From assembly GCF_010731855.1 (NCBI RefSeq), contig NZ_AP022620.1, positions 744,001 to 808,000 of the forward strand: DNA of 64,000 nt. Direction: 5' to 3'. The stretch is from Mycolicibacterium anyangense (GTDB lineage: Bacteria > Actinomycetota > Actinomycetes > Mycobacteriales > Mycobacteriaceae). The notes under the pieces were generated by a model. The model had not been told where the DNA came from, ran no database searches, and worked only from the letters and a program-made list of their open reading frames with translations. The position numbers and the translations under genes were made by a program. Positions 28,633-55,277 of this stretch are shown here, in pieces; positions within the stretch are counted from its first letter, which is position 1; each line of letters begins with the position of its first letter.

Positions 28633-28661
28633 CCACCGGCCCGCGTGGCACGATGGATGCC

Positions 28662-29366
28662 ATGGCACGACTGGACTACGACGAGCTCAACGCCACGATC
28701 CGATACGTCATGTTCTCGGCGTTCGCCGTGGAACCCGGGGCGCTGGGCTATGACGACGACGCCCGCGCCGCCGTCGTCGACGAGACCGCCACCTTCCTCA
28801 AGCAGCAGGAGGAGAGCGGGGTCGTGTTCCGCGGCATCTATGACGTGGCCGGCATGCGCGCCGACGCCGACTTCCTGTTCTGGACCCACGCCGAGCGGAT
28901 CGAATCGCTGCAGGCCACCTACAGCGATTTCCGTCGCACCACCACGCTGGGGCGGGCCAGCAGGCCCACCTGGAGCAGCGTGGCACTGCACCGCCCGGCG
29001 GAGTTCAACAAGAGCCACGTCCCGGCGTTCCTCGCCGGCGAGGAGCCCGGCAACTACGTGTGTGTCTACCCGTTCGTCCGGTCGCTGGACTGGTACCTGC
29101 TGCCCGACGAGGAGCGTCGCAAGATGCTCGCCGACCACGGGATGGCCGCCCGCGGATACAAGGACGTCCGCGCCAACACCGTTCCCGCGTTCGCGCTCGG
29201 CGACTACGAGTGGATCCTGGCGTTCGAGGCCCCTGAGCTGCACCGCATCGTCGATCTGATGCGTGATCTGCGGGCCACCGAAGCCCGCAGGCACGTGCGC
29301 GAGGAGATCCCCTTCTTCACCGGCCCGCGGGTCGGCGTGGAGGAACTGGTCGCCAAGCTGCCCTGA
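28662..29366 (+). CDS. hemQ: Coproheme decarboxylase HemQ (ChdC), chlorite-dismutase family
   Basis: A 234-residue protein of the chlorite-dismutase fold. It contains [62 protein letters not shown], and [20 protein letters not shown] with the catalytic tyrosine of ChdC, followed by [26 protein letters not shown], whose histidine is the proximal heme ligand position. It converts coproheme to heme b using peroxide. The ATG at 28662 (MARLDYDEL) matches the M. tuberculosis start; one at 28653 is three codons upstream. It ends 85 nt before the first GGDEF-EAL gene. Confidence 0.95.
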
Positions 29367-29451: not shown

Positions 29452-31806
29452 GTGGGTCGACCTCAGGTGACACCGAGGGTGGGGATGAGCGCGGCCGTTG
29501 CCGGCCTCGTGGTCCTCGGCTACCTCGGCTGGCTGATGTCCCTGCGTCCGGCGTCGGAGCTGCTGTCACTGATTCTGGATTCGGACACGCTGCTGGTCGT
29601 GGTCGCCGCGGCGGCGGCGTTCGCCTCGGCGGTCACCGCCCGCGTCACCGGGGGCCGGGTTCGAGCCGCGTGGCTGTCGATGACCGCCGGTCTGACCGGA
29701 TTCACCGTCGGTGCCGCGATCTGGCGGTACTACCAGGTGAGCGGCAACCAAGCCCCCTTCCCGTCGGTGGCCGATATCGCCTATCTGATCCTGCCGGTGA
29801 TGACGGCCATCGCCCTGGTTCTGCTGGCCACCGGGCTGTCCCGGACCTCGCGCACGCGTCTGATCCTCGACGGACTCATCGTCGCGGCGTCGTTCACCAT
29901 CGTGGCGTGGGTGCTGGTGCTCGAGGAAGTGGTCGAGGCCGAGCGGGTCAACGAGGTCAAGATCGCGGTATCCCTGAGCTATCCGGTGCTCGACGCCGCC
30001 GTTCTGACCGTCGCCGTGTTGGTGTTGGCCAGGGCCCTGCCGGGCCAGCGGCGCACGCTGGCCTTGTTGGCGCTGGCCACGAGTTGCATCGCCATCTCGG
30101 ACGGCGCCTTCGTGTATCTGGCTGCCACCCAACGTCATTCACAATTCGAGGTGATCGATCTGGGATGGCTGGCCGGGCTGGCCTTGATGATCGCGGCGGC
30201 CGTCGCCGGGCGGGACTTCGCGGTACGGGATACCGTTGCGGCCCAGCCGCCTTCAGCGGCTTCGGTGTGGCTGCCGTTCGTCCCGGTGGTGGCGGCGAGT
30301 GTGGCGGCGCTGCTGGTGCCGCCGGAGCTGATCAGGACGCCGCCGATCATGGTGCCCAGCATCGTGCTCGTCATCGCCTTCTTGACCCGTCAGCTCCTGA
30401 CGATGAGTGAGAACCGCAGACTTCTCGGGGCGGTTGCCGAACAGGCGCTGCGTGATCCACTGACCGGTGTCGGTAACCGCATCGTGTTCGGTGACCATCT
30501 CAACCACGCCATGCAGATGCGTCAGCGCGACGGTCTGACCGTGGGGGTGCTGGCGATGGACCTCGATGACTTCAAAGTGGTCAACGACACCCTCGGCCAT
30601 CCGGCCGGTGACGAACTGCTCAGCCTGGTCGCCGAGCGCATCCTGGGCTGTGTCCGCGACGGCGACACGGTGGCGCGCCTGGGTGGCGACGAGTTCGCGG
30701 TGCTGCTCGAGGGGCGCGACGACAAGACCCAGCTGATCGCCCACCGGGTGGTGGAGGCCTTCGACCGGCCGTTCGTGGTCGACGGCCAAGAGCTGCTGGT
30801 GCGGCCCAGTGCCGGGCTGGCCATCGCCGACACCGAGGACCCCGACGTGACGGCCCTGGACCTGCTCAAGCGCTCCGATATCGCCATGTACCGGGCCAAG
30901 CGCACCCGCACCGGCGGTGTGCACACCTTCAACGCCGAGATGCTGCTGGCCGAGTCGCCCGACAGCAACCTGTTCGGCAAGCCGGCGCCGGCCAACCGTG
31001 GCCGCGGCGCCGAAGCCGTCCGGCTGCTCGGCGAATTGCGGCAGGCCATCGACCATTTCGAGCTGACCCTGGTCTACCAGCCCAAGTTCGACCTGCGTAC
31101 CGGGGTGATCGTGGGTGTCGAGGCGCTGGTGCGCTGGCCGCATCCCGAGCGGGGCGTGCTGGCACCCGATCAGTTCCTTCCTCTGGTCCGCCGATACGGG
31201 CTGATGGGCCGCGTCAACGATGTCGTCGTCAACAAGGCGCTCGACGACGTCGTCGAGTGGCGTACCGCAGGCATTCCCACGACTATCGCCATCAACCTGT
31301 TCGCGCCGTCGATGGCCGACCTGCGGCTGCCGGACACGATCAGTCTGGCTCTGGGCAACCGCGACCTTGATCCGTCCATCTTGACCGTCGAGATCACCGA
31401 GGATCTCTTCCTGGACAACATGGAACGGACCAAGCTCGTCCTGGCTCGCCTGCGTGAGCGCGGGGTCCGCATCGCCATCGACGACTTCGGCAGCGGCTAT
31501 TCGGCGTTGTCCTACATGCGCGAGCTGACCGTCGACGAAGTCAAACTCGACCGGCACTTCATCGCCCCGATGCTGGGCGACCCACGGGCGGCGGCGGTGG
31601 TACGAGCCGTCATCGATCTGGCCGCCGAACTGGGTCTGTCCATCGTCGCCGAGGGTATCGAGAACGGGCAGACCGCCGGCTGGCTGCGCGAGCACGGATG
31701 CAGCATCGGCCAAGGTTTTTTCCTGAGCCCGCCGGTGTCCTCGAAGGAGGTGATCGACCTGTTCCGCCGGTCCGCGGTCCACACTCTGGCGCGCACCCTT
31801 CGCTAA
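29452..31806 (+). CDS. Membrane GGDEF-EAL protein, copy 1 of 5
   Basis: A protein of about 784 residues predicted to make and break cyclic-di-GMP. Residues 1 to about 310 hold roughly ten hydrophobic helices and no PAS or HAMP domain. A short helix (TMSENRRLLGAVAEQALRDPLTG) leads into GGDEF: LGGDEFAVLL is intact, with the inhibitory-site RDGD five residues before it. The EAL domain keeps VEALVRW, INLFAPSM, EITEDLF, IDDFGSGYSAL, VKLDRHF, AEGIE and IGQGFF, so both activities look possible. The start is uncertain: GTG at 29452, GTG at 29467 or ATG at 29485. Its membrane part is closer to copy 5 (RLILDGLIVAASF, RALPGQRR) than to copies 2-4. Confidence 0.9.
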   Translation: MGRPQVTPRVGMSAAVAGLVVLGYLGWLMSLRPASELLSLILDSDTLLVVVAAAAAFASAVTARVTGGRVRAAWLSMTAGLTGFTVGAAIWRYYQVSGNQAPFPSVADIAYLILPVMTAIALVLLATGLSRTSRTRLILDGLIVAASFTIVAWVLVLEEVVEAERVNEVKIAVSLSYPVLDAAVLTVAVLVLARALPGQRRTLALLALATSCIAISDGAFVYLAATQRHSQFEVIDLGWLAGLALMIAAAVAGRDFAVRDTVAAQPPSAASVWLPFVPVVAASVAALLVPPELIRTPPIMVPSIVLVIAFLTRQLLTMSENRRLLGAVAEQALRDPLTGVGNRIVFGDHLNHAMQMRQRDGLTVGVLAMDLDDFKVVNDTLGHPAGDELLSLVAERILGCVRDGDTVARLGGDEFAVLLEGRDDKTQLIAHRVVEAFDRPFVVDGQELLVRPSAGLAIADTEDPDVTALDLLKRSDIAMYRAKRTRTGGVHTFNAEMLLAESPDSNLFGKPAPANRGRGAEAVRLLGELRQAIDHFELTLVYQPKFDLRTGVIVGVEALVRWPHPERGVLAPDQFLPLVRRYGLMGRVNDVVVNKALDDVVEWRTAGIPTTIAINLFAPSMADLRLPDTISLALGNRDLDPSILTVEITEDLFLDNMERTKLVLARLRERGVRIAIDDFGSGYSALSYMRELTVDEVKLDRHFIAPMLGDPRAAAVVRAVIDLAAELGLSIVAEGIENGQTAGWLREHGCSIGQGFFLSPPVSSKEVIDLFRRSAVHTLARTLR

Positions 31807-31872
31807 ACTTCCGCCAGCGTCAATATTTGTCCGCCTGTCCAGTCGGGAGGTGCCGTGCCCAGGGCTGCGCAT
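31804..31872 (+). repeat. Duplicated leader, copy A (start of GGDEF-EAL copy 2)
   Basis: The stop codon and following bases of copy 1 (TAAACTTCCGCC) and the first 18 coding bases of copy 2 (GTGCCCAGGGCTGCGCAT) recur at the junction of copies 2 and 3 with one change in 30 bases. The sequence between them differs. TAAACT also fits a -10 hexamer. Confidence 0.7.
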
Positions 31873-34200
31873 CTGGCCGTCGCCGCCGGCGTCTTCTTCC
31901 TCGCCTTCGCCGTCTGGCTCGTGGGCGGGCTGTCTGACGGCACCACGCTCGTGGCGGTCTCCGACATCGCGATGCTGCTGTTCGTGGTGCCCGCGGTCGT
32001 GTTCAGCGCGTTGGCCGCGCGAGCCTCGGCCGGCCGGGTACGGCTGGCCTGGGCGGCGCTGACCGTCGGCGTGCTCAGCTGGGGGATCGGCGAGGCGTTG
32101 TGGACCTACTACGAGCTGGTCGCGCACAAAAGCCCGTTCCCGTCCCCGGCCGACGCCGCCTACCTGGTCTTCCCCGTTGCCGCATGTGTCGGTCTGCTGG
32201 TCTTGCCCGGCGAGCAAACCGGACCGTTTCGCAGTCGGGCGTTGCTGGACGGGCTCATCGTGGCGGCCGCGCTGTTCCTGGTCGGCTGGGTGACGGTCCT
32301 GGGACCGCTGTACGCCAGCGGTGGCAGAGTGGAGCGGCTTGCGTTCGTCGTCGCGATCGCCTACCCGCTCTCCGATGTCGTCGTGTTGACCATGGCCACC
32401 GTCGTCCTGGTCCGCTCGGGAGCTCGCGACCGGCTCCCGCTGACTTTGGTGACCGTCGGTGTGGCATGTATTGCGCTGTCGGACAGTACCTTTGCCTACT
32501 TGGCGTCCAAGGGGCAGTACAGCAGCGGCCGCGCCCCGGACATCGGCTGGGTGGCGGGTCTGCTGTTCATCACGGTCGCCGCAGTGACCGCCATGCAGAC
32601 CACCCGGGAGAACCGCGAGGCGCAGGAACTTCCGAGCTGGGCCTCGATCTGGCTGCCCTACGTGCCGGTGCTGCTGGCCGGTGTCGTCGCGGCGGCCAAC
32701 CCGCCTGATCTGTTCCGGAACCGGATGGTCTTGGCAGTGGCCGGGCTGTTGGTGGTTGCGGTTCTGGTGCGGCAGTTCCTGGCGGTCAGTGAGAATCGGA
32801 TGCTGGTCGCCGCGGTGACCGAGCAGGCCCTGCGAGATCCGCTGACCGGCCTGGCCAACCGGTCCCGCTTCGACGACCGGCTGGATCACGCGATGCGGAT
32901 GCGTCAGCGCGACGGCTCCTCGGTCGGCGTGATCTCCCTGGACCTCAACGACTTCAAGCTGGTCAACGACAACCTCGGTCATTCCGTCGGTGATGAACTG
33001 CTCATCGGTGTCGCGGACCGACTTCGCGGCGCGGTCCGATCGGTCGACACCGTCGCCCGGCCTGGCGGTGACGAGTTCTGCCTGCTGGTGTCGGGGGGTG
33101 CCGACGCCCCGCACGTGGTGGCCGACCGGGTGGCCCGAGCGTTCGACCAGCCGTTCATGATCGCCGGTCATGAACTGCCGATGCGGCCCAGCATCGGACT
33201 GGCGATCGCCGGGGCAGGTGAGCCGGCGCTGAGCGCCGACGAGGTGATGACGCGCGCCGACACGGCGATGTATGCGGCCAAGCGTAGCGGCAACCGCGGC
33301 GTGCTGACCTATGACCCGCAGATGCAGCTCAGCGCGGAGGCCGACGACGGGCAGATGTTCGTCCCCGCAGAGTCGGAATCCGTTGGAGTGGAGGCGATTG
33401 CGTTGCTGGGCGACTTTCGTGGCGCGCTCACCAATGCCGAGTTGGCCCTGGTCTATCAGCCCAAGTTCGATCTGCTCACCGAGCGCGTCGTCGGGGTGGA
33501 GGCATTGTTGCGCTGGAACCGGCCCGATGGCCGGGTGGTGACGCCGAAGGACTTCCTGCCGTTGGTCCACCGGCATGGACTCACCGCTCCGGTCACCGAG
33601 TTCGTGCTCAACCGCGCCCTCGACGACATGGTGTCCTGGCATGCGGCGTCGTTCGACATTCCGGTGTCGGTGAATCTGTTCGCCGCCTCGATGGCCAACC
33701 GGGGGATCCCGGCCCGGCTCACCGCAGCGCTGTCCGAGCGTGGCCTGGCTCCGGACACTTTGACGGTGGAAGTCACCGAGGACGTGTTCCTCGACAATGT
33801 CGAACGGACGCGTGCAGTGCTGGAAGATCTGCGCCGCAACGGTATTCGGATTGCAATCGACAACTTCGCCAGTGGTGACTCGGTGCTGCCGCTGTTGCGG
33901 GAGCTGCCGATCGACGAGGTCAAGCTCAATCGGCACTTCATCGCGCCGGTCGTGGACGACCCGCGGGCGGCGACGGTGGTACGTGCGCTGTTGGGCCTGG
34001 CCGACGGGCTGGGCCTGGCCGCGGTGGCCGAAGGGGTGGAGGACGCCGAGACCGAGACATGGCTTCGCGGCAATGGGTGCCGCCTGGCGCAGGGGCACTT
34101 CCTGAGCCCGCCATTGAGCACCCACGAGTTGCTGACATTGCTGAATCGGCGCGCCGCAGAGTGTGGCGAGACGCATACCGGCAGGGGTGTGCTCGGATAA
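31855..34200 (+). CDS. Membrane GGDEF-EAL protein, copy 2 of 5, with damaged EAL active site
   Basis: A 781-residue protein with about ten transmembrane helices (residues 6-310), then GGDEF at 404-408 (ARPGGDEF; inhibitory-site RSVD just before) and an EAL domain from about 530. The EAL triplet (549-551), VNLFAAS, EVTED and AEGVE are kept, but the metal-binding loop normally read as IDDFGSGYSAL has become IDNFASGDSVL (Asp to Asn at 670), and KLDR has become KLNR (Asn at 692). The phosphodiesterase is therefore probably weak or dead while the cyclase looks intact. GTG start with GGGAGG eight bases upstream, 48 nt after copy 1. Its opening sequence MPRAAHLAVAAG is nearly repeated in copy 3. Confidence 0.92.
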   Translation: MPRAAHLAVAAGVFFLAFAVWLVGGLSDGTTLVAVSDIAMLLFVVPAVVFSALAARASAGRVRLAWAALTVGVLSWGIGEALWTYYELVAHKSPFPSPADAAYLVFPVAACVGLLVLPGEQTGPFRSRALLDGLIVAAALFLVGWVTVLGPLYASGGRVERLAFVVAIAYPLSDVVVLTMATVVLVRSGARDRLPLTLVTVGVACIALSDSTFAYLASKGQYSSGRAPDIGWVAGLLFITVAAVTAMQTTRENREAQELPSWASIWLPYVPVLLAGVVAAANPPDLFRNRMVLAVAGLLVVAVLVRQFLAVSENRMLVAAVTEQALRDPLTGLANRSRFDDRLDHAMRMRQRDGSSVGVISLDLNDFKLVNDNLGHSVGDELLIGVADRLRGAVRSVDTVARPGGDEFCLLVSGGADAPHVVADRVARAFDQPFMIAGHELPMRPSIGLAIAGAGEPALSADEVMTRADTAMYAAKRSGNRGVLTYDPQMQLSAEADDGQMFVPAESESVGVEAIALLGDFRGALTNAELALVYQPKFDLLTERVVGVEALLRWNRPDGRVVTPKDFLPLVHRHGLTAPVTEFVLNRALDDMVSWHAASFDIPVSVNLFAASMANRGIPARLTAALSERGLAPDTLTVEVTEDVFLDNVERTRAVLEDLRRNGIRIAIDNFASGDSVLPLLRELPIDEVKLNRHFIAPVVDDPRAATVVRALLGLADGLGLAAVAEGVEDAETETWLRGNGCRLAQGHFLSPPLSTHELLTLLNRRAAECGETHTGRGVLG

Positions 34201-34268
34201 ACTTCTGCCGTCGTCTCACCCGCGGCGGCCTAGGGGAGGGGGGCGGTGTTGTGCCCAGGGCTGCGCAT
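34198..34268 (+). repeat. Duplicated leader, copy B (start of GGDEF-EAL copy 3)
   Basis: TAAACTTCTGCC at 34198 and GTGCCCAGGGCTGCGCAT at 34251 match the junction of copies 1 and 2 at 31804 and 31855. The shared ends around a diverged spacer mark a tandem duplication boundary. Confidence 0.7.
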
Positions 34269-36575
34269 GTAGCTGCCTTCTCCGGTGCGATGTTCCTCGC
34301 GTTCGTCGGCTGGATTCTCAGCGGGGTGTCCCAGGGCAAGCAGCTATCCGCCATCGATGACCTCGTCCTGCTCATCGTGACCATTCCGGCCGCCGTGTTC
34401 GCCGCGATCGCGGCGCGCTCGGCGCGCGGCCGCCTGCGGATGGCGTGGGTGGCAATGACGGTGGCATTGGTGGCGTGGGGGATCGGCGAGGCGATCTGGA
34501 CCTACTACGAACTTGTCCTCAACGAGGTGCCCTATCCGTCGGTGGCCGACGCCGCCTACCTGATGTTTCCGGTCGGGGCCTGCGCGGGATTGCTGTTGTT
34601 CCCCAGCGAACACGGCGGGCCGTTTCGCGGTCGGGTCTTCCTCGACGGACTGATCGTGGCCGGCTCGCTGTTTCTGGTCAGCTGGGTGACGATCCTGCAG
34701 CCGCTCTATGCTGCCGGCGGCACCGACCAAGTGGCGTTCGCGGTATCGCTGGCTTACCCGGTCTCCGATGTCGTCGTCCTGACGCTGGCTGCGGTCGTGC
34801 TGGTCCGTACCGGGCCGGAGCACCGGTTGACGTTGACCCTGCTCACCGTCGGGCTGGCGTGTATTGCGTTGTCGGACAGCTTGTTCACCTATCTCACCGC
34901 GAAGGACGAGTACGCCAGCGGGGATGTGATCGACATCGGGTGGGCGGCCGGCCTCCTGTTGATCGCGGTGGCCGCGGCGGCGAGCGGGCAGAGCACCCAC
35001 GAGCCCACCGAAGCGCCGGAACTGCCGGGGTGGGCCTCGATCTGGTTGCCGTATGCGCCGCTGCTGCTCGCCGGCATCATCGCTGCCGCGCAGCCGGTAC
35101 CGCTGCTGAAAACATCGCCGGTGGAGGTGGTGGCGGTACTGCTGGTGATCGCGGTGCTGGCCCGCCAGTTCCTGGCGGTCAGGGAGAACCGGCGCCTGCT
35201 GGCCACCGTCGCCCAGCAGGCCATGCGGGATCCGCTGACCGGTCTGGCCAACCGCGCGCTGTTCAGCGAGCGTCTCGACCACGCCATGCAACTTCGCCAG
35301 CGCGACGGGACCACCGTCAGCGTCGTGGCGGTGGACCTCAACGATTTCAAGCTGGTCAACGACAACCTCGGGCATCCCGTCGGGGACGATCTGCTGATCG
35401 GGGTGTCCAATCGGCTGATGAACTCGATCAGGGCCGGCGATACCGCCGCCCGCATCGGTGGCGACGAGTTCTCGGTCCTGGTCGAAGGTAGTGCCGACGC
35501 CGCGCATCTGGTTGCCCACCGGGTGGCGGAGTCCTTCGATCTGCCGTTCCGCATCGCCGATCACGAACTCCTGATGCGTCCCAGCATCGGCCTGGCGATC
35601 GCCGAACCTGACGAAGCCGCCCTCACCGCCGACGACCTGTTGATCCGCGCGGACGCCGCGATGTACGCCGCGAAACGGGCCCGCCTGCACGGGGTGCAGA
35701 CCTATCACCCCGAGATGCAACTGACCGCGCTGGCCGACGTGTTCGCTCAGCCGGCCGCGACGTCCGAACCCGGCGGGGTCGCGGCGATCCAGCTTCTCGG
35801 CGACCTGCGCCGGGCCATTGCCGACGGCATCTTGACGTTGGTGTATCAGCCCAAATTTGACCTGATCAGTGCGCGGATCGTCAGCGTGGAGGCGTTGTTG
35901 CGCTGGCCGCGGCCCGACGGCCCGGTACTGACCCCCGAGGAGTTTCTTCCGCTGGTTCGACGGCACGGACTGATGGGGACGATCACCGACTTCGTGCTCA
36001 ATCGTGCGCTCGACGACGCCAGAGCATGGCGGGCGGCGTCGGTCGGTCTGCCGATCGCGGTCAATCTGTTCGCGCCGTCATTGGCCAATCTCGGGATCCC
36101 GGCCACCATCGACCGGGCGCTGGCCGAACGTGGGCTTCCGCCTGAGGCGCTCACTGTCGAGATCACCGAGGATCTGTTCCTGGACAATCTGGAGCGCACC
36201 CAGAACGTTTTGGAAACCTTGCGGCACAACGGGATCCGGATTGCCATCGACGACTTCGGCAGCGGCTACTCGGCGTTGTCGTATCTGCGGGACCTGCCGA
36301 TCGACGAGGTCAAGCTGGATCGCACGTTCATCGCGCCCATCCTGGTCGACCAGCGCGCAGCGGCGGTGGTGCGTGCGGTGATCTCGCTGGCCGACGAGCT
36401 GGGCCTGACCACCGTCGCCGAGGGCATCGAGAACGCCGAGACGGTGGCGTGGCTGCGTGATCACGGCTGCCGCATCGGGCAGGGTTTCTACCTCAGTCCG
36501 CCAGTGGATGCGGCGACGCTGGTGGCCTTGGTGGCCGGCACATCGCCCTCCGGCAGCGGCACACTCGATTCGTAG
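34251..36575 (+). CDS. Membrane GGDEF-EAL protein, copy 3 of 5
   Basis: A 774-residue protein of the same build as copy 2: about ten hydrophobic helices (AAHVAAFSGAMFLAFVGWIL first), the conserved membrane motifs WTYYELV and FRGRVFLDGLIVAGSLFLVSWV, then IGGDEFSVLV with inhibitory-site RAGD, and a complete EAL set (VEALLRW, VNLFAPSL, EITEDLF, IDDFGSGYSAL, VKLDRTF, AEGIE, IGQGFY). Both activities are possible. The GTG at 34251 has a purine-rich GGGGAGGGGGG upstream and matches the start of copy 2; the frame stays open for 64 codons before it, inside the end of copy 2, but this is not homologous. It ends 12 nt before copy 4, so they are probably co-transcribed. Confidence 0.92.
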   Translation: MPRAAHVAAFSGAMFLAFVGWILSGVSQGKQLSAIDDLVLLIVTIPAAVFAAIAARSARGRLRMAWVAMTVALVAWGIGEAIWTYYELVLNEVPYPSVADAAYLMFPVGACAGLLLFPSEHGGPFRGRVFLDGLIVAGSLFLVSWVTILQPLYAAGGTDQVAFAVSLAYPVSDVVVLTLAAVVLVRTGPEHRLTLTLLTVGLACIALSDSLFTYLTAKDEYASGDVIDIGWAAGLLLIAVAAAASGQSTHEPTEAPELPGWASIWLPYAPLLLAGIIAAAQPVPLLKTSPVEVVAVLLVIAVLARQFLAVRENRRLLATVAQQAMRDPLTGLANRALFSERLDHAMQLRQRDGTTVSVVAVDLNDFKLVNDNLGHPVGDDLLIGVSNRLMNSIRAGDTAARIGGDEFSVLVEGSADAAHLVAHRVAESFDLPFRIADHELLMRPSIGLAIAEPDEAALTADDLLIRADAAMYAAKRARLHGVQTYHPEMQLTALADVFAQPAATSEPGGVAAIQLLGDLRRAIADGILTLVYQPKFDLISARIVSVEALLRWPRPDGPVLTPEEFLPLVRRHGLMGTITDFVLNRALDDARAWRAASVGLPIAVNLFAPSLANLGIPATIDRALAERGLPPEALTVEITEDLFLDNLERTQNVLETLRHNGIRIAIDDFGSGYSALSYLRDLPIDEVKLDRTFIAPILVDQRAAAVVRAVISLADELGLTTVAEGIENAETVAWLRDHGCRIGQGFYLSPPVDAATLVALVAGTSPSGSGTLDS

Positions 36576-36587
36576 GAGGATTCTGGA

Positions 36588-38924
36588 TTGCCGAGGACTC
36601 GACATGTCGCCGCGGTAGGGAGCGTCTTCTTCCTCGCCTTCGCCGTCTGGGTGCTCGGTGACTGGTCGCACGGGCTGGTGCGGCTGGGGGTCTCCGATGT
36701 CACGCTGTTGGTCGCCGCGGCAGCCGCCACGGTGTTCGCCGCACTGGTGGCCCGAGGCACCCGCGGCCGGTTGCGGCTCGGCTGGCTCTGGATCACGGTG
36801 GGCCTGCTGGGCTGGACGGTCGGCCAGGCGATCGCCTGCTACTACGAACTGGTCCTCGAACGGACGCCGTTTCCCTCGCCTGCCGATGCCGCCTACCTGA
36901 TCTTCCCGATCGGTGCGTGCATCGGCCTGCTGCTGATGCCGACCGAACGCACCGGCCGTTTCCGCGGCCGGGTGTTCCTGGACGGCCTGATCGTCGCCGG
37001 CTCGCTGTTCCTGGCCAGTTGGGTGACCGTGCTCGGCCCCATCTACACCGGCGGCGGTACGGATCGGTTGGCGTTCTTCGTGTCGTTGACCTACCCGGCC
37101 TCGGATCTGGTCACCCTCACCCTGGCCGCGGTGGTCTTGGTGCGCTCAGACGCCGAGCACCGGGTTGCCCTCACCCTGGTCACCGTCGGTGTCGCCTGTA
37201 TTGCGTTGTCGGACAGCGTGTGGACGTACCTGACGGTGCTCAACGAGTACGAGAGTGGCGACGTCATCGACATCGGCTGGGTCGCCGGCCTGCTGTTGAT
37301 CGCGGTGGCGGCGGCTGCGAGTCGTCAAAGTATCGGGGATGACCCCGACGCCGCGGAGCTACCCGGATGGGCCTCGGTGTGGTTGCCCTATGCGCCGCTG
37401 TTGCTGGCCGGCATCGTCATGGGCGCCAACCCGCCCACGCTGCTCCGGTCAGGGCCGGTCGAGACCATCGGGGCACTCCTGGTGATCGCGGTGCTGGCCC
37501 GGCAGTTCCTGGCGGTCAGTGAGAATCGCACGCTGTTGGCCACCGTTGCCGAGCAGGCCCTGCACGATCCGTTGACTGGTCTGGCCAACCGGGCGGTGTT
37601 CAACGAGCGGCTGGACTCCGCGATGGCCGTACGAGACCGCGACGGAACGTCGGTCGGTGTGGTCACGCTGGATCTCAACGACTTCAAGCTGGTCAACGAT
37701 CACCTCGGCCATCCGGTGGGTGACGATCTGCTGATCGGGGTGGCCAACCGGCTGGGTCACTGTGCGCGCGACGGAGACACCGTCGCACGACTGGGCGGTG
37801 ACGAGTTCTCCATCCTGGTCTGCGGTGGCGTCGACGCCTCGTATCTGGTGGCCCATCGGGTGGTGGATGCGTTCGAGCGGCCCTTCGTGCTGGCCGGCCA
37901 CGAGCTGCTGGTGCGCCCCAGCGTCGGGTTGGCCGTCGCCGACGGTGAGGAGGCTGTGCTCAGTTCCGAGGAGCTGGTCCGGCGCGCCGACACGGCGATG
38001 TACACCGCCAAGCGCTCACGCAGCCGCAACGTCCAAAGTTACGATCCCGAGCTCAAGCTGGCTGATGAGGCCGTCGACGCCCAGCTTCTCAACGAGTCGG
38101 CGATGGCGCGGGATTCCGACGGGGTGCTGGCGATCCAGCTGCTCGGCGACCTGCGGCACGCGATCGCCAACGGCGACCTCACGCTGGTGTACCAACCGAA
38201 GTTCGAGCTGTCGACCGAGCGCATCGTGGGTGCCGAGGCTCTGCTGCGATGGCCGCGTCCGGACGGTCACGTGCTGACCCCCGACGATTTCCTGCCGCTG
38301 GTCCGCCGGCACGCAATGATGGGTCCCGTGACCGATTTCGTCATCAACCGGGCCCTTGATGACGCGCTGGTATGGCAGCGGGCGTCCTTCGACGTCCCGG
38401 TTGCGGTCAATCTGTTCGCACCGTCGCTGGCCAATCTGGGCATCCCGGCCAAGATCGATCACGCGCTGACCGAGCGGGGCCTGGCTCCGGCGAGCATTAC
38501 CGTTGAGATCACCGAGGACATGTTCCTCGACCATCTCGAGCGCACCCGATCGGTGTTGGAAGAGCTGCGTCGCAACGGGATTCGTATTGCTATCGATGAC
38601 TTCGGCAGTGGCTACTCGGCGCTGTCGTATCTGCGCGAGTTGCCGATCGACGAGGTGAAGCTGGACCGCGCCTTCATCGAGCCGATCCTCGCCGACGAGC
38701 GTGCGGCCGCGGTCGTGGAGGCCGTCGTCGGGCTGGCGCATGTGCTCGGTTTGGTCATCGTGGTGGAGGGTGTCGAGGACGCGGAGACGGCGGCGAAGGT
38801 CCGCGAGTACGGCAGCGATATCGGGCAGGGCTTCTATTTCAGCCGACCTGTGACGGCTGCCCAACTACTGGAATTGCTCAGGCGTCAGACGCGAGCGTCG
38901 ACGCGATCGAGATCGACGCCGTAG
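36588..38924 (+). CDS. Membrane GGDEF-EAL protein, copy 4 of 5
   Basis: A 778-residue protein, closest to copies 2 and 3. It starts at a TTG (PRTRHVAAVGSVFFLAFAVW), with AGGAGG upstream in TAGGAGGATTCTGGATTG; the first residues align with those of copies 2 and 3. About ten hydrophobic helices are followed by LGGDEFSILV with inhibitory-site RDGD and a complete EAL domain (AEALLRW, VNLFAPSL, EITEDMF, IDDFGSGYSAL, VKLDRAF, VEGVE, IGQGFYF). The membrane motifs YYELV, RGRVFLDGLIVAGSLFL and LTYPASDLVTLTLAAVVLVR are shared with copies 2 and 3. Predicted bifunctional. Confidence 0.91.
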   Translation: MPRTRHVAAVGSVFFLAFAVWVLGDWSHGLVRLGVSDVTLLVAAAAATVFAALVARGTRGRLRLGWLWITVGLLGWTVGQAIACYYELVLERTPFPSPADAAYLIFPIGACIGLLLMPTERTGRFRGRVFLDGLIVAGSLFLASWVTVLGPIYTGGGTDRLAFFVSLTYPASDLVTLTLAAVVLVRSDAEHRVALTLVTVGVACIALSDSVWTYLTVLNEYESGDVIDIGWVAGLLLIAVAAAASRQSIGDDPDAAELPGWASVWLPYAPLLLAGIVMGANPPTLLRSGPVETIGALLVIAVLARQFLAVSENRTLLATVAEQALHDPLTGLANRAVFNERLDSAMAVRDRDGTSVGVVTLDLNDFKLVNDHLGHPVGDDLLIGVANRLGHCARDGDTVARLGGDEFSILVCGGVDASYLVAHRVVDAFERPFVLAGHELLVRPSVGLAVADGEEAVLSSEELVRRADTAMYTAKRSRSRNVQSYDPELKLADEAVDAQLLNESAMARDSDGVLAIQLLGDLRHAIANGDLTLVYQPKFELSTERIVGAEALLRWPRPDGHVLTPDDFLPLVRRHAMMGPVTDFVINRALDDALVWQRASFDVPVAVNLFAPSLANLGIPAKIDHALTERGLAPASITVEITEDMFLDHLERTRSVLEELRRNGIRIAIDDFGSGYSALSYLRELPIDEVKLDRAFIEPILADERAAAVVEAVVGLAHVLGLVIVVEGVEDAETAAKVREYGSDIGQGFYFSRPVTAAQLLELLRRQTRASTRSRSTP

Positions 38925-38982
38925 CGCTGCGGAAATGGATGATCTGGGCGGATGGTATGCGCTAGTCAGGTACCCCCCATCA

Positions 38983-39001
38983 ATTTGTTAGGCTGTCCTG
39001 A
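38983..39001 (+). promoter_or_regulatory. Possible IdeR iron box before GGDEF-EAL copy 5
   Basis: ATTTGTTAGGCTGTCCTGA matches 13 of 19 positions of the mycobacterial iron-box consensus (TTAGGTTAGGCTAACCTAA), with the central TTAGGCT and CCT intact. It lies 25 nt upstream of the ATG of copy 5, in a 102-nt gap where a separate promoter is plausible. This match level is at the weak end and could be chance. Confidence 0.3.
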
Positions 39002-39026
39002 CTTTCGATGCGGGGGCGGGGGCCTG

Positions 39027-41369
39027 ATGCAACAGCGCTGTGTCGCGTCCAGATCGGTGCGCGGCGGTGTCGCTGCGGCGGTCGGATTGCTGGTGATCGC
39101 GGTGGTCGCACTGAGTGGTTCGCCCAGCCAGTCGACGATCGCCGCCTTCAAGACCGTCCTGACGCTGGCGGCAGTGCTGGCGTCGGTGCTGACCGTGCGT
39201 ACCGGTCTCCTGGCGCGGGGGCAGGCCCGGGTGGCGTGGCTGGCGCTGGCCGGCGCTCTCGCCGTGTACGCGGTCGCCGTGGGAACGCGCGCGTGGGACG
39301 CGATCGCCGGCAGCGAGCGAGCGTTCCCCTTCTGGGCGGATCTGCTTCGACTGGTGCTTCCGTTGGCCGGATGTGTCGTGGTGTTGTTGCTGCCGTTGGG
39401 ATTGACCCGGATGTCGCGTCTGCGACTGTTGCTCGACGGGCTCGTCGTCACCGGCTCGTTCATCATCGTGGTGTGGATCGGGGTGTTGGACGAGGTCTAT
39501 CAGAGCCGCCCGGCCGACCGGGCCATGCTCGCCATGTCGATCGCCTACCCGATGGTCGACGCGGCGTGGGTGACCATCGCGCTGTTGGCGTTCTTGCGGG
39601 CGTTGCCCGGGCAACGCTTGACCACCGGTCTGATCACCGCAACCGGCTTCTGCTTCGCACTGACCAACGACGCCGCGGTGTATTACATTTCGGCGCAGCA
39701 GTACTTCGACCATCGGGTGGTCGCCGTCGGATGGCTCGCCGGGCTCTTACTGTTCGTCGCAGTCGCCATCGCAGGACGGACGTGCGCATACCGGTACACC
39801 ACGGTGGTACAGCCGCCGTCGTCGGCGTCGGTGTTGCTGCCCTTCGTGCCGGTGGTGGCGGCGATCGCGGCGACCTTCACCCGACAGCCTCAGCAACTGC
39901 TGTCCGGCCCGTCATTGGTCGCTGGGGCGCTGTTGATCGTCGCGTTCCTGGCGCGGCAGATCCTCGTCGCCGGCGAGAACGCGAGGCTGTTCGCGACCGT
40001 CACCGACTACGCTCTGCATGACCCGGTGACCGGCCTGGCCAACCGCGCGGCTTTCCACGACCGGGTCAGTCACGCGATGCAGATGCGGGATCGGGACGGG
40101 GTCTCGGTCGCGGTGATGACCCTCGACATCGACGACTTCAAGATGGTGAACGACACCTTCGGCTATCACATCGGCGACGAGTTGCTCCTGCTAGTCGGCG
40201 AGCGGATCGTGACCGCTGTACATTCCGGCTACACGGTGGCACGGGTGGGTGGCGATGAATTCGCGGTGCTCATCGAGGGACGGGATGACCACTCTCAGGT
40301 GGTCGCTCATCGGGTGGCCGAGGCGCTGGACCGGCCGTTCACCGTCGCCGGTCAGGAACTGATCATTCGGGCCAGCATGGGGTTGGCCATCGCAGATCCG
40401 GACGACTGTGACATCACGACCGCTGAATTGTTGCAGCGATCCGATGTCGCGCGGGTGGCGGCCAAGAAGTCGAGGGTCCCTGGTGTCCACGCGTTTGCCC
40501 CCGAGATGGTGGCCGAGTTCTTCGTGGGCAGTTTCCTGCATCGGGAGCCGGTGCCAGTGGGCAGCAAGCAGACCTCGGCCGTCCGCCTCCTCGGCGAGCT
40601 TCGGCAGGCCATCGATCGCGATGAACTCGCGTTGCACTATCAACCGAAAGTCGACCTGCGCTCATTGGAGATCGTCGGAGTGGAGGCATTGGTGCGCTGG
40701 CCGCATCCTTCGCGCGGGATGCTGGGGCCCGAGGAGTTCCTCCCGCTGGTGCGGCGGCACGGGCTGATGCTGACGGTCACCGATCAGGTGATCAACCGAG
40801 CTCTCGACGACGCATTGATCTGGCACCGGGCCGGTTTCGAGGTTCCGGTGGCGGTCAACGTCGCCGCGCCGTCATTGGCCACGGCGAAGCTCGCGACGAC
40901 GATCTCCCGTGCGGTGTCCGCGCGAGGTCTAAGCGCCTCCTCGTTGATCGTGGAGATCACCGAAGACCTGTTTCTCGAAGGGCTCGAGCGGACCACCCGG
41001 GTGCTGGGACTGCTGCGAGCCGCGGGGGTGCGGATCGCGGTCGACGATTTCGGCAGTGGCTACTCGGCGCTGTCGTATCTGCCCGACCTTCCGCTGGATG
41101 TGGTGAAACTGGATCGCCGGTTCGTTGAACCGATCACATCGGACCCGCGCTCGGCCGCGGTGGTGCGTGCCGTCGTCGACCTGGCGCACGAGTTGGGTCT
41201 GAGCGCCGTCGCCGAAGGCATCGAAGATTTCGGCACGTTGTCCCGTCTGCGCGAGTTGGGTTGCGATGTGGGACAAGGCTTTTACTTCAGCAGGCCGGTG
41301 GAGCGCGACGTTCTGCTCGCGATGCTCGCTAATCCTCCGTGGGCACCAGCTTCAGCGACACCGAGTTGA
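39027..41369 (+). CDS. Membrane GGDEF-EAL protein, copy 5 of 5, inhibitory site lost
   Basis: A 780-residue protein whose membrane part resembles copy 1 (LLLDGLVVTGSFIIVVWIGVLDE, RALPGQRLTTGL). The cyclase loop VGGDEFAVLI is intact, but the inhibitory-site RxxD is replaced by HSGY, and the usual SDxAMYxAK segment near the end of GGDEF reads SDVARVAAKK. The EAL set is complete (VEALVRW, VNVAAPSL, EITEDLF, VDDFGSGYSAL, VKLDRRF, AEGIE, VGQGFYF). So it is probably mainly a phosphodiesterase, or a cyclase free of product inhibition. The ATG at 39027 follows a G-rich stretch and sits 102 nt after copy 4. Its last 41 nt overlap the convergent msrB gene. Confidence 0.9.
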   Translation: MQQRCVASRSVRGGVAAAVGLLVIAVVALSGSPSQSTIAAFKTVLTLAAVLASVLTVRTGLLARGQARVAWLALAGALAVYAVAVGTRAWDAIAGSERAFPFWADLLRLVLPLAGCVVVLLLPLGLTRMSRLRLLLDGLVVTGSFIIVVWIGVLDEVYQSRPADRAMLAMSIAYPMVDAAWVTIALLAFLRALPGQRLTTGLITATGFCFALTNDAAVYYISAQQYFDHRVVAVGWLAGLLLFVAVAIAGRTCAYRYTTVVQPPSSASVLLPFVPVVAAIAATFTRQPQQLLSGPSLVAGALLIVAFLARQILVAGENARLFATVTDYALHDPVTGLANRAAFHDRVSHAMQMRDRDGVSVAVMTLDIDDFKMVNDTFGYHIGDELLLLVGERIVTAVHSGYTVARVGGDEFAVLIEGRDDHSQVVAHRVAEALDRPFTVAGQELIIRASMGLAIADPDDCDITTAELLQRSDVARVAAKKSRVPGVHAFAPEMVAEFFVGSFLHREPVPVGSKQTSAVRLLGELRQAIDRDELALHYQPKVDLRSLEIVGVEALVRWPHPSRGMLGPEEFLPLVRRHGLMLTVTDQVINRALDDALIWHRAGFEVPVAVNVAAPSLATAKLATTISRAVSARGLSASSLIVEITEDLFLEGLERTTRVLGLLRAAGVRIAVDDFGSGYSALSYLPDLPLDVVKLDRRFVEPITSDPRSAAVVRAVVDLAHELGLSAVAEGIEDFGTLSRLRELGCDVGQGFYFSRPVERDVLLAMLANPPWAPASATPS

Positions 41370-41748
41370 TGCAGTAGCGCTGATCGGTCGGGGTGGGGTA
41401 GCCCTCGCCGCTGAACACGTGACCCAGGTGGCTGTGGCAGTTGGCGCACAACACTTCGACCCGGTGCATACCCAGCGAGTCGTCCGGGCGCAGGATCACC
41501 GCTTCGGAATGCGACGGGTCGAAGAACGACGGCCAGCCGCAGTGCGACTCGAATTTCTCGGTGCTGCGGAACAATTCGGCTCCGCAGGCTCGGCACTGGT
41601 AGATGCCTTCGGTCTTGGTGTCGGTGTACTCGCCGGTGAACGGGCGCTCGGTGCCGGCCTGGCGCAACACGTGATACTCCGTGGGCGTCAGGCGCGTGCG
41701 CCACTCGTCGTCGGTCAGTTCCAGCTTTGGGGCGGGAATCGAACTCAT
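41329..41748 (-). CDS. msrB: Peptide-methionine (R)-S-oxide reductase MsrB
   Basis: A 139-residue zinc-containing reductase that repairs methionine-R-sulfoxide. It holds two CxxC zinc pairs (YQCRACGAELF and VLCANCHSHLGHVF), the substrate site FESHCGWPSFFDP and the catalytic cysteine in DQRYCINSVSLKL. Length and order are normal for a single-domain MsrB. It is convergent with GGDEF-EAL copy 5, whose end overlaps msrB by 41 nt. In M. tuberculosis msrB (Rv2674) is close to hemQ, so the five-gene array separates genes that are otherwise near neighbours. Confidence 0.96.
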   Translation of the reverse strand: MSSIPAPKLELTDDEWRTRLTPTEYHVLRQAGTERPFTGEYTDTKTEGIYQCRACGAELFRSTEKFESHCGWPSFFDPSHSEAVILRPDDSLGMHRVEVLCANCHSHLGHVFSGEGYPTPTDQRYCINSVSLKLVPTED

Positions 41749-50735: not shown

Positions 50736-51050
50736 TCAGTGATTCCCGTCACGCGCTGCTTCGTCGATCCGGGCCAGCGCAGCGAGGCCGCTGACCTGAA
50801 ACGCCCGCAACAACAGCGGGTTGGCAACGATGTGCAGTGATTCCGCATGCGGCACAAGGACATTGATGGCCGCGCTGTCGAGGTATTCCACCGCACTGAG
50901 GTCCACGACCAGCTTGTCGGTGGCCTGCGATGTGGCGGTGTCGAGCGCCTCGGCGAACCTGCTGACGTTACTGGCGTCGATCTCGCCGACCGCTTCCAGC
51001 ACGACGGTGTCCTCCTCGCGTCTGGTCTGAACGGTCAGCGGCGTGGTCAA
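50736..51050 (-). CDS. STAS domain anti-sigma factor antagonist
   Basis: A 104-residue protein of the SpoIIAA/RsbV type. VVLEAVGEIDASNVSRFAEAL is the first half of the STAS fold, and VVDLSAVEYLDSAAINVLVPHA carries the phosphorylatable serine (Ser59) in the D-S-A motif. Antagonists of this kind release a sigma factor from its anti-sigma kinase when dephosphorylated. It overlaps the upstream kinase/phosphatase gene by 4 nt, so the two are co-translated. This strongly implies that it is the substrate of the PP2C and ATPase domains of that protein. Confidence 0.9.
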   Translation of the reverse strand: MTTPLTVQTRREEDTVVLEAVGEIDASNVSRFAEALDTATSQATDKLVVDLSAVEYLDSAAINVLVPHAESLHIVANPLLLRAFQVSGLAALARIDEAARDGNH

Positions 51051-54000
51051 CGGCGAATCCTCGTGGACAGGCGGACGGTGGTGCCCGCGGTATCCGGAAG
51101 GATATCGACATCTTCCATCAGTGCACGCATGATCTGGATGCCCCGGCCGCGATGGGAGTTGGCCGGATTGTCCTTGGGCTTCCAGCTGCCGCCGTCGGTG
51201 ATCGTCAGGCGGAGCTGGTCCACCTCGGCGGCGGCCTGCAGCGTGATGGTGCCATGGCCGTCGCTGCCGCGGTAGCCGTGCTCGATGGCGTTGGTGACGG
51301 CTTCGCCCGCCGCTACGAGCACGTCCTGGGCCTGGTCATAGTTGATACCGGCCGAGGACAGCCAGCTGCGTAGCGCTGCGCGCGCCGGGGCCAGATGGAC
51401 CGCATCGGCGGGGATCTGCACGCGCAGTGGCGCTGGATGGCGGTAGAGCAGCAGCGCGACGTCGTCCTGGTAGCCGCCCGGAGGTGCCAGTTTCGACATG
51501 ATCGCGTCGGCGAGTGAATCGAGTTCGAGTGAGCTGTCGTCGCGAATGAGGGCGGCTGCGTCGGTGATCCCGTCGTCTAGGGACCGGCGCCGCCGTTCCA
51601 CCAGCCCGTCGGTGTAGAGCAGCAGCGTCGCCTGGGCGGGCACGGTCACCTGGGCCTGGGGGCGAACCCGTTGGGGCCGGATGCCCAGCGATATCGAATG
51701 ACCACCCTCGAGAAGCGTTGTGCTGCCGTCGATGTCGACCATGATCGGCGGTGGGTGACCGGCGCTGGAGTAGGTCAGCTCACCGCTTTCGGGATCCAGC
51801 ACGGCGCAGAACGCGGTGGTGCACTGTGCGCCTGGCAATCGGGCCGCGAACCGGTCCAGGCCAGCTAATGTTGCTGCCGGACTTGACTTTTCGAGTAGCA
51901 GAGCGCGGCAGGCGCTGCGTAGCTGGCCCATGACGGTGGCCGCGCTCAGGTCGTGGCCCACGCAATCGCCGACTACCAGCGCGATCCGGCCGTCTTCGAG
52001 GTCGACGACGTCGTACCAGTCGCCGCCGACCTGCAGGGGGCGTGATGCCGGCTGGTAGCGGACGGCGAACCCGGCAGGCAGATCAGCGGGGCCCAGGATC
52101 GAATGCTGCAGTGCCAGTGCGGTTTCACGCTGCTGGTCGAGTTGGTGGACGCGCTGCAGTCCCTGGCCGAGTCGGCCGGCTAGCACGCTGAGTAGGGTCT
52201 GATCCTCGGCGGTGAACGGTCGCTGCTCGGGCAGCTCTATCCACACCACCAGAATTCCCTGCGGGTGCTGCAGCGCGATACCCGCGGATCCGGGTGTCCT
52301 GGTGTCGACGGTGAGCAGATCGCCACTGTCGGCCAGTGTGCTGATCCGTTCTCGGGTTCGTTCGGGCAGCGCGGACCACCGCGCGTCCCCGGGCGTGCTG
52401 ATCAGGTCCGGAACCTCGGGTTGATCGTCCGGGGTGCCGCCCGGGCTGGAGAAGGTCGCCGCCAGCACCTGCATGGCGGCCCATTGCCCACGTAGCTGGT
52501 CGAGTGCGGCGCGCAGTGCATCATCGACCGTATCTGCCTGTGCGAGTTGGGCATTGAGTGTTGCTAGTGCCGTCTGGCGTTGTACGGCGTAGTGTTCCGC
52601 GGTGACATCGCGGAACGTTCCTACCATCACCGAGCGGCCGGTGTCGGGATCCTCGGCGTGGGCGATGTTGGCGGTGATCCACAGCCGGTGCCCGTCGCGA
52701 TGGGTCACCGGCACCGTGTAGGTGCCGTCGGGCCCCTCGGGAACGCCGGCGAACGCGTCGACGATCTCCCGGTTGGCTTCCGGCTCGGTGTCGATGTTCG
52801 GCCACCAGGGGTGCATCGGCTGATAGGGCAGCCCCTCCGGCCCGTAGCCGAGGATGTCGGTGAACGCGGCGTTGATCTCGATCACCGCACCGCGTTCGTC
52901 GACAACGAAGAATGCCTCCTGCAGCGAGTCCACCAGCGCGGTGCGCCACCGGCTGTGGTGGTTGCGCAGCCGGGCGAGTTCGATATTGGCCCGGACCCGG
53001 GCCAGTAGCTCGGCGGCCGCGAACGGCTTGACCAGGTAGTCGTCGGCACCGGCTTGCAATCCCTCGATCGAGGCCTCCTGCCCGGCGCGGGCCGAGAGCA
53101 GCAGAACCGGGACCGCGACCGTACGTGCTTCGGCCCGCAGCGCCGCGACCAACTCCAGCCCGTCGAGCCGGGGCATCATCACATCGCTGACCACCAGGTC
53201 GGGCAGGCCGGAACGAATCCGTTCGAGGGCCTCATGGCCGTCGGTCACGGCTTCGACCTCATATCCGGCGTTGCGCAGCAACCGCACCAGGTACTCGCGC
53301 ATGTCGGCGTTGTCGTCGGCGACCAGCACCTGCGCCGGCGAACCGAGTTTCCCGGCCGGCCCGGCGAGGGTAGTCAGGTGGCCGGTATCGCTGCCGCCGC
53401 GCACATCGCCCGGCAGCCAGCGCAATGCCTCCTGCAGGAACGGCTCTGCGGCACCCGAGGACGTCCACCCCGATCCCGCGGCGATAACGGCGTCGGCGGG
53501 CAGGTGCCCGGCGCCCAGGGGCAGCCGGATGGTGAACGTCGTCCCGGCCCCTTCGATGCTGTCGGCGGTGATGGTGCCGCCGTGCAGTCCGACGAGCTCG
53601 CGGACCAACGCCAGCCCGATTCCACTGCCCTCGGTGGACCGGGCCCGCGCCGTCTGGATGCGGTGGAAGCGTTCGAAGAGCCGGGGCATCTCTGCGGCGG
53701 GCACGCCGATGCCGGTGTCGGTCACGCTGACCACCGCCGCGGAGTCTTCAGCCCTCACCCGCACGGTGATCGCGCCGTCGAAGGTGAACTTCAGCGCGTT
53801 CGACAGCAGGTTCAGGATCACCTTCTCCCAGATGTCGCGGTCGAGGTAGACCGGCTCGTCGAGCGGCTCGCACTCCACCACCAGACGCAGCCCGGCGCGG
53901 TCGATCGCCGACCGGAAGACGCTGGCCAGTTCCGCGGTGACCTCGCCCAGGTCGACGGGCTCGTAGCGGGCCTGCATCCGGCCGGCCTCGATCCGGGAGA

Positions 54001-55216: not shown

Positions 55217-55277
55217 GCCCGACTCATCGTCGGGTGGCAAGCACCCCCGAACTCGGCTCGAGCGGTCAGCCCATAAG

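Follow-up and report, generated by a model that had tools for sequence, protein, structure and literature searches.

Why should a mycobacterium keep five copies of one membrane-anchored enzyme of cyclic di-GMP (c-di-GMP) turnover side by side at a single site? The question is raised by a stretch of 64,000 nucleotides (hereafter the window) from Mycolicibacterium anyangense, whose genome is a single contig of 5.70 Mb. At positions 29452-41369 the window carries five tandem plus-strand genes for GGDEF-EAL proteins, flanked by hemQ and msrB, an arrangement proposed in a preliminary description of the letters and on which the open reading frame (ORF) list and Pfam agree. How did the copies arise, and do they still do the same thing? 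What is the membrane part to which each pair of domains is attached, and where else is it used? Our answer, given with moderate confidence, is that one membrane-anchored c-di-GMP enzyme has been multiplied in tandem in this lineage specifically, and that the array is now a diversifying multi-input module.

The five genes and their motifs

The array and its borders are laid out as follows (TM, transmembrane).

28653..29366, plus strand: hemQ (Pfam Chlor_dismutase; Pfam and synteny), left border of the array
29452..31806, plus strand: gene 1, 784 residues, 10TM-GGDEF-EAL, type A; GGDEF, product-inhibition site (I-site, RDGD) and EAL motifs intact; start GTG
31855..34200, plus strand: gene 2, 781 residues, 10TM-GGDEF-EAL, type B; GGDEF and I-site intact, EAL active-site motifs degenerate; start GTG
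33415..34113, plus strand: degenerate EAL domain of gene 2, residues 521-753 (Pfam stretch)
34251..36575, plus strand: gene 3, 774 residues, 10TM-GGDEF-EAL, type B; motifs all intact; start GTG
34248..35228, plus strand: modelled membrane domain of gene 3, 327 residues, beginning one codon ahead of the gene start
36588..38924, plus strand: gene 4, 778 residues, 10TM-GGDEF-EAL, type B; motifs all intact; start TTG
39027..41369, plus strand: gene 5, 780 residues, 10TM-GGDEF-EAL, type C; I-site lost, D210 to N, D229 to A; start ATG
40221..40232, plus strand: HSGY of gene 5, standing where the product-inhibition site RxxD would be
41329..41748, minus strand: msrB (SelR domain), right border, convergent with the array

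After trimming to plausible starts the five proteins span the 774-784 residues first given for them; the start of gene 3 was placed at the GTG at 34251 because the codon at 34248 is GTT. All five score above the Pfam cut-offs for GGDEF (118-134 bits) and EAL (212-233 bits), and a Pfam scan of the five returned only these two domains at E ≤ 1, in keeping with the earlier statement that they have no PAS, GAF or HAMP parts. As to the figure of about ten helices each, a crude hydropathy count gave 10 TM segments, but 9 for gene 1; an AlphaFold2 model of the gene 3 membrane part has ten.

Neighbouring array genes lie 12 to 102 bases apart, the shortest distance being that from the stop of gene 3 to the start of gene 4 (12 bases). 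Immediately upstream are hemE, hemY and hemQ in the same direction, with a gap of 85 bases between hemQ and gene 1, and at the other end msrB and the last part of gene 5 share 41 bases. Co-transcription of the array is likely. TANNNT-like sites upstream of genes 1-3 are common to the window and Mycobacterium sp. M26 (hereafter M26); we make no claim of a promoter for each gene, because in front of genes 2 and 3 these sites run into the preceding gene's stop codon. Neither a riboswitch (Rfam, gathering thresholds) nor a tRNA association (ARAGORN) was found in the window.

At the DNA level the copies are in register at a spacing of about 2.4 kb, with 62-77% identity to the reference copy in 300-base blocks, which makes them true tandem paralogues and not a product of chance. 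Recent identical duplicates or an assembly repeat are ruled out by the same block identities together with orthologues in independent genomes. Among the five proteins pairwise identity is 30-64% in the membrane part, 51-68% in GGDEF and 50-73% in EAL, genes 2, 3 and 4 being the closest trio.

The cyclase active site is marked by the motif GG[D/E]EF; the product-inhibition site RxxD sits five residues before it and is not found in every GGDEF-EAL protein, and the catalytic motifs of the EAL domain are EAL, N, E, DDFG, K, E and Q. In the motif columns of the 78 family proteins at the locus, the GGDEF motif is intact in all five window proteins and in 51/51 members of arrays. The product-inhibition site is present in four of the five window proteins, gene 5 being the exception; the other five type C genes keep it, and it is also lost in two further array genes (gene 1 of L018 and gene 2 of L020). 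The EAL motifs are likewise complete in four of the five. In gene 2 and its M26 orthologue DNFASGDS, VKLNR and QGH replace DDFGSGYS, VKLDR and QGF, and by the known chemistry of EAL enzymes these changes should abolish hydrolysis.

These differences between the copies carry predictions about their direction of action. Gene 2, with its cyclase motif kept beside a degenerate yet conserved EAL domain, is predicted to encode a cyclase, in which the non-catalytic EAL domain probably serves as a regulator or partner surface. Gene 5, which lacks the product-inhibition site and has an altered set of conserved membrane acids (see below), is predicted to have lost product feedback; it probably encodes an enzyme free of such feedback that has another ligand or none. 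Both active sites and the conserved acids are retained in genes 1, 3 and 4, whose products could be two-way enzymes.

Copy number and descent at the hemQ-msrB locus

The gene hemQ is present in 196 of 198 whole genomes of the genus, the window's own included. The locus survey comprises 143 loci, namely those of 140 of the 195 other hemQ-bearing genomes, taken by hemQ similarity, the window, L009 (M26) and L011 (Mycobacterium sp. BK086); 55 genomes (9 listed and 46 unlisted) fall outside it, and its fractions thus lean to near relatives. The metagenome-assembled genome HKST-UBA41 (L010/L018, three copies) was counted once. At all 143 loci hemQ faces msrB, and between the two there are no family copies in 100, one in 27, two in 2, three in 10, four in 3 and five in 1, which is the window; two or more copies thus stand at 16 of the 143.

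The hemQ proteins of all 16 arrays are 87.2-100% identical to that of the window, and at eight loci a hemQ at least 86% identical is followed by one copy or none (L027, L031, L032, L033, L035, L037, L040 and L055). One of these, L027 (hemQ 88.9%), has a 419-base hemQ-msrB gap with an EAL-domain remnant only, and it alone was positive when 86 gene-less gaps longer than 150 bases were searched for remnants (E ≤ 1e-4); related species carry an array there, and the remnant is probably what a lost gene left behind. Family genes are both gained and lost at this locus. Three of the 27 single genes (L060, L067, L076) are without a GGDEF domain, and nine of the 27 have a degenerate GGDEF motif or none. 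Among the matches listed in a profile search of the 198 genomes (E ≤ 1e-50), runs spaced by about 2.4 kb occur only in array genomes, with no larger array; among the same matches listed, G219 has one extra close pair, 2.9 kb apart, the second copy lying past msrB.

Large hemQ-msrB gaps were also seen in L071 (about 14.4 kb), L103 (about 14.0 kb), L072 (about 5.9 kb), L142 (about 6.4 kb) and L089 (about 8.0 kb), and since only the last holds a family gene, the site accepts other insertions too. The window genome has a sixth, dispersed family copy (L171:5952-8474, about 4.721-4.723 Mb), which is 57-58% identical to gene 3 and to gene 3's M26 orthologue. Horizontal import of the array is not favoured, as its flanks are syntenic and the GC content at third codon positions is 0.82-0.86 in the array versus 0.86-0.91 in six neighbours.

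The descent of the copies was followed in a tree of the 78 locus proteins (short search; support by the Shimodaira-Hasegawa-like approximate likelihood ratio test), and the branch that holds the arrays was defined by hemQ identity together with this gene tree. Each of genes 1 to 4 has a single M26 gene as its partner (support 100, 100, 99 and 100 in that order); gene 5 is absent from M26 at the hemQ-msrB locus. Genes 2-4 fall with their M26 orthologues and with two genes of HKST-UBA41 in a clade of eight rows (100), which points to local duplications in that sub-branch. A single clade (99) unites the genes that stand first in the 16 arrays. Gene 5 and the last genes of five other arrays form a six-row clade (100), within which gene 5 groups with three of them at 90, and this clade joins the first-position clade in a 22-row clade (100); a second last-position type makes a separate seven-row clade (100). 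On this pattern an array of first, middle and last types is old, and the middle type was multiplied to three in the window. The deep branches, which bear on the root and on the kin of the single-copy genes, are weak.

Selection on the copies was estimated with our own script after Nei and Gojobori, as the ratio of nonsynonymous to synonymous substitution rates (dN/dS) of genes 1-4 against their M26 orthologues, gene 5 having no M26 partner. The ratio is 0.138-0.155 over whole genes and 0.161-0.267 in the membrane part. In the EAL part it is 0.091 for gene 2, the copy with the degenerate domain, and 0.062-0.121 for genes 1, 3 and 4. Genes 1-4 are under purifying selection, and by their sequences the array copies are old and specialised. 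With its natural series of zero to five copies, the hemQ-msrB locus offers a means of testing the value of sensor duplication.

The ten-helix membrane domain and its spread

The preliminary description was right to call the membrane part undescribed as a sensor domain, in that no Pfam model was found for it in the five full proteins (E ≤ 1) or in 15 TM domains scanned, and no PDB chain is related to it by sequence at E ≤ 1. Over the 15 membrane domains the best Pfam E-value is 0.017 (UPF0014, one member), and gene 3 scores 9.9 bits against Mem_trans, for which the cut-off is 25.7. The AlphaFold2 model of the gene 3 membrane part, built on 15 sequences (pLDDT 78.6, pTM 0.75), has a helix 10 that spans residues 290-326 unbroken and runs straight to the GGDEF domain. 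The connections after helices 2, 4 and 6 bear arginines, and hence both ends of the domain should be inside. Comparison with solved structures returned only weak matches to seven-helix bundles (rhodopsin- or G-protein-coupled-receptor-like, over helices 2-8), and we make no claim of a rhodopsin-like function.

Conservation was read by aligning 93 domains, of which 78 come from the locus and 15 from 13 other loci (12 of the 15 from other genera), with residues numbered along the modelled gene 3 stretch, where D101, Y170, D174, D210, D229 and W232 are conserved. Among the 15 outside copies W67, G80, D133 and D210 are kept in all, D101 in 14 (E in one), Y170, P171, D174 and W146 each in 14, W232 in 13 and D229 in 13 (E in two). 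By topology D101 (helix 4), D210 (helix 7) and D229 (helix 8) fall in the outer part of their helices and D174 halfway along helix 6, and together they outline a candidate outward-open site. Type A and B array genes keep D101, D174 and D210 in 38/38, residue 229 being Y in 7/16 of type A and E in 1/22 of type B. Type C has N at 210 in 6/6 and A or M at 229 in 6/6, and so has lost two of the four conserved acids; in the other last-position type residue 101 is T or K and residue 174 is E in 7/7. A coupling of pocket loss to cyclase loss among the single-copy genes is suggestive in two clades, but it is contradicted in the arrays and was set aside.

Is this domain peculiar to the lineage of the window, as had been supposed? 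It is not: it occurs in at least 112 of the 198 genus genomes at E ≤ 1e-50 and, in an evenly drawn set of Actinomycetota that includes the window's genus, in at least 36 of 149 genomes and 30 of 117 genera, as well as on a Deinococcus plasmid and in histidine kinases. These are lower bounds, as are the EAL counts given below, because a limited number of candidates was scored per genome (11 for the genus membrane profile, 14 for the Actinomycetota, 13 for EAL). The fetched examples have the layouts TM-GGDEF-EAL, TM-GGDEF (L181, L185) and TM-PAS-GGDEF-EAL (L178, L179, L187, L186). Histidine kinases of other Actinomycetota carry the same ten-helix domain as TM-HisKA-HATPase (L180, L182, L184), with PAS added (L186) or with PAS and a receiver (L183). 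That kinases and cyclases have this input in common speaks most strongly for a sensor role, and the domain is probably a portable sensor. In a search of plasmids, among the 5000 records counted, at least two cover at least 80% of gene 3, and the top five rows are Deinococcus. On one such plasmid a separate GGDEF gene (L170:1609-2256) is found close to the TM-GGDEF-EAL gene and points the other way.

The unit also occurs doubled. A natural fusion in G006, of the same genus (L177:3610-7635), is a chain of 1342 residues with the layout TM-GGDEF-TM-GGDEF-EAL, in which the pattern used did not detect the second GGDEF motif. ORFs of 972-1348 residues with two TM matches are present in six more genomes (G001, G007, G010, G017, G033, G036), and G031 has a 1359-residue ORF with one TM match among the matches listed.

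Readings of the array and comparison with known systems

What might such an array do? Through its ten-helix domain with four conserved acids, each product would sense a cue at the membrane's outer face or close to it. Since helix 10 is unbroken up to GGDEF, a movement of the bundle would determine how synthesis (GGDEF) and breakdown (EAL) are balanced, and duplication would turn one such switch into a set of related sensors that may be expressed together and may cooperate. Of the earlier proposal of a dedicated multi-input module, the rarity of five copies (1/143 loci) and the divergence at sensor and catalytic positions have held up; that the inputs differ is something we infer.

Other explanations have to be weighed against this expansion into a multi-input module. 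If the duplication were neutral or a matter of dosage, redundant copies would only raise the amount of enzyme and unequal crossing-over would change their number without functional meaning. The range from zero to five copies among species with similar hemQ, the locus reduced to an EAL remnant and the 100 empty loci of 143 would all be expected. However, the membrane parts of the window copies are only 30-64% identical, orthologues are kept by position across species with dN/dS near 0.15 for genes 1-4, and the motif changes are position-specific and common to orthologues, so that we regard mere redundancy as distinctly improbable. It is unlikely, in our judgement, that the array is a local signalling hub, in which a heteromeric membrane complex chiefly acts on a target close by, through contact and c-di-GMP in its vicinity, the ten helices being mostly an anchor or dimer surface. 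The adjacency and common direction of the five genes, the natural two-unit fusion, the degenerate but constrained EAL domain of gene 2, which fits a partner or receptor role, and the lack of a detected PilZ receptor in the genome are consistent with a hub, but acids and aromatic residues are kept across kinases and cyclases beyond the needs of an anchor, and the array encodes no partner.

The domain might also be a transporter or channel with a fused signalling output, transport rather than binding being read. Ten helices and conserved intramembrane acids are usual in transporters as well; against this stand the Pfam scores given above for UPF0014 and Mem_trans, the lack of a sequence relative in the PDB at E ≤ 1, and best folds that are weakly those of seven-helix bundles, and we consider transport very improbable. 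The reading as a diversifying multi-input module can be extended, though we offer the extension only tentatively. The ten-helix domain would then be an undescribed cross-phylum extracytoplasmic sensor built on four acids (a site for a cation or cationic ligand) and used by histidine kinases and c-di-GMP enzymes. In this mycobacterial branch it would have been stacked into as many as five enzymes, with pockets and catalytic sites that differ according to position and one member turned into a cyclase bearing a receptor-like dead EAL. The outcome would be a modular c-di-GMP switchboard for several inputs, open to further evolution, in a genus where PilZ receptors are almost absent. A domain of this kind, mobile between kinases and cyclases, crossing phyla and absent from Pfam, merits a name and a ligand search.

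The c-di-GMP network around the array is large. The window genome has 25 GGDEF and 11 EAL domains and no PilZ match; of 118 genus genomes, 117 are without PilZ, and the one that has it is listed at 5% contamination. EAL domains have a median of 11.5 in 14 sampled array genomes including the window (7 to at least 13) and of 3 in the other 184 genus genomes (0-12; 57 of the 184 lie outside the locus survey). One other EAL protein of the window genome carries MASE1 (L175), and elsewhere in the window (51047-55240, minus strand) lies a gene for a 1397-residue hybrid with GAF, HisKA, HATPase, receiver, PAS, a SpoIIE-type phosphatase and a second HATPase. Excerpts of published reports describe a single GGDEF/EAL enzyme in M. 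smegmatis and call the role of c-di-GMP in mycobacterial biofilms unclear (PMC12632254), and describe one GAF-GGDEF-EAL protein and one EAL protein in M. tuberculosis (PMC2994820). The figure of one or two c-di-GMP proteins, given for the well-studied mycobacteria, suits these two species but is not typical of the whole genus, in which the 184 genomes other than the sampled array ones have a median of three EAL domains and up to 12. It is only when judged by M. smegmatis and M. tuberculosis that c-di-GMP seems marginal in mycobacteria.

How does the array compare with systems already described? A tandem GGDEF-EAL array in mycobacteria, or the ten-helix domain, is absent from the open-licence titles and abstract openings listed and from the excerpted text of PMC10333796 and PMC8846402, the latter a 2022 review of c-di-GMP inputs that places MHYT and MASE1 among domains of unknown function. 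MASE1 and MASE3 are likewise multi-pass membrane input domains of signalling enzymes, but MASE models match none of the five full proteins (E ≤ 1) and none of the 15 TM domains (E ≤ 10); the sole hint of MASE3 kinship, in the distant TM-GGDEF relative L181, is below threshold (20.7 bits, cut-off 31), and such kinship was rejected. MSDGC-1 (MSMEG_2196) and MtbDGC (Rv1354c) resemble the array proteins in having GGDEF and EAL in one chain, but Rv1354c has a GAF input, and the excerpted reports give one such enzyme per genome in M. smegmatis and M. tuberculosis, with no mention in the excerpts of a ten-helix array (PMC2994820, PMC12632254). A full-length TM-GGDEF-EAL relative in another phylum, QLG12706.1 of a Deinococcus sp. 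D7000 plasmid, is 33% identical over 98% of gene 3 and is annotated only as an EAL domain-containing protein.

By published layout, as far as excerpts of PMC6205966 give it, the nearest described kind is that of Streptomyces CdgC and CdgF, which have the layout 10TM-PAS-PAC-GGDEF-EAL. The claim of an undescribed membrane-domain enzyme is narrowed accordingly: ten TM helices ahead of GGDEF and EAL had been published, and the domain itself is without a Pfam model. In three genomes of the same class (7.9-9.7 Mb) the ten-helix part of 10TM-PAS-GGDEF-EAL proteins matches the window's profile. Unlike CdgC and CdgF as excerpted, all five array proteins lack a PAS before GGDEF, and they are encoded in a tandem array. 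The likeness may extend to catalysis, as CdgC is described in the same excerpts as having cyclase activity despite a degenerate EAL domain, which is what we propose for gene 2.
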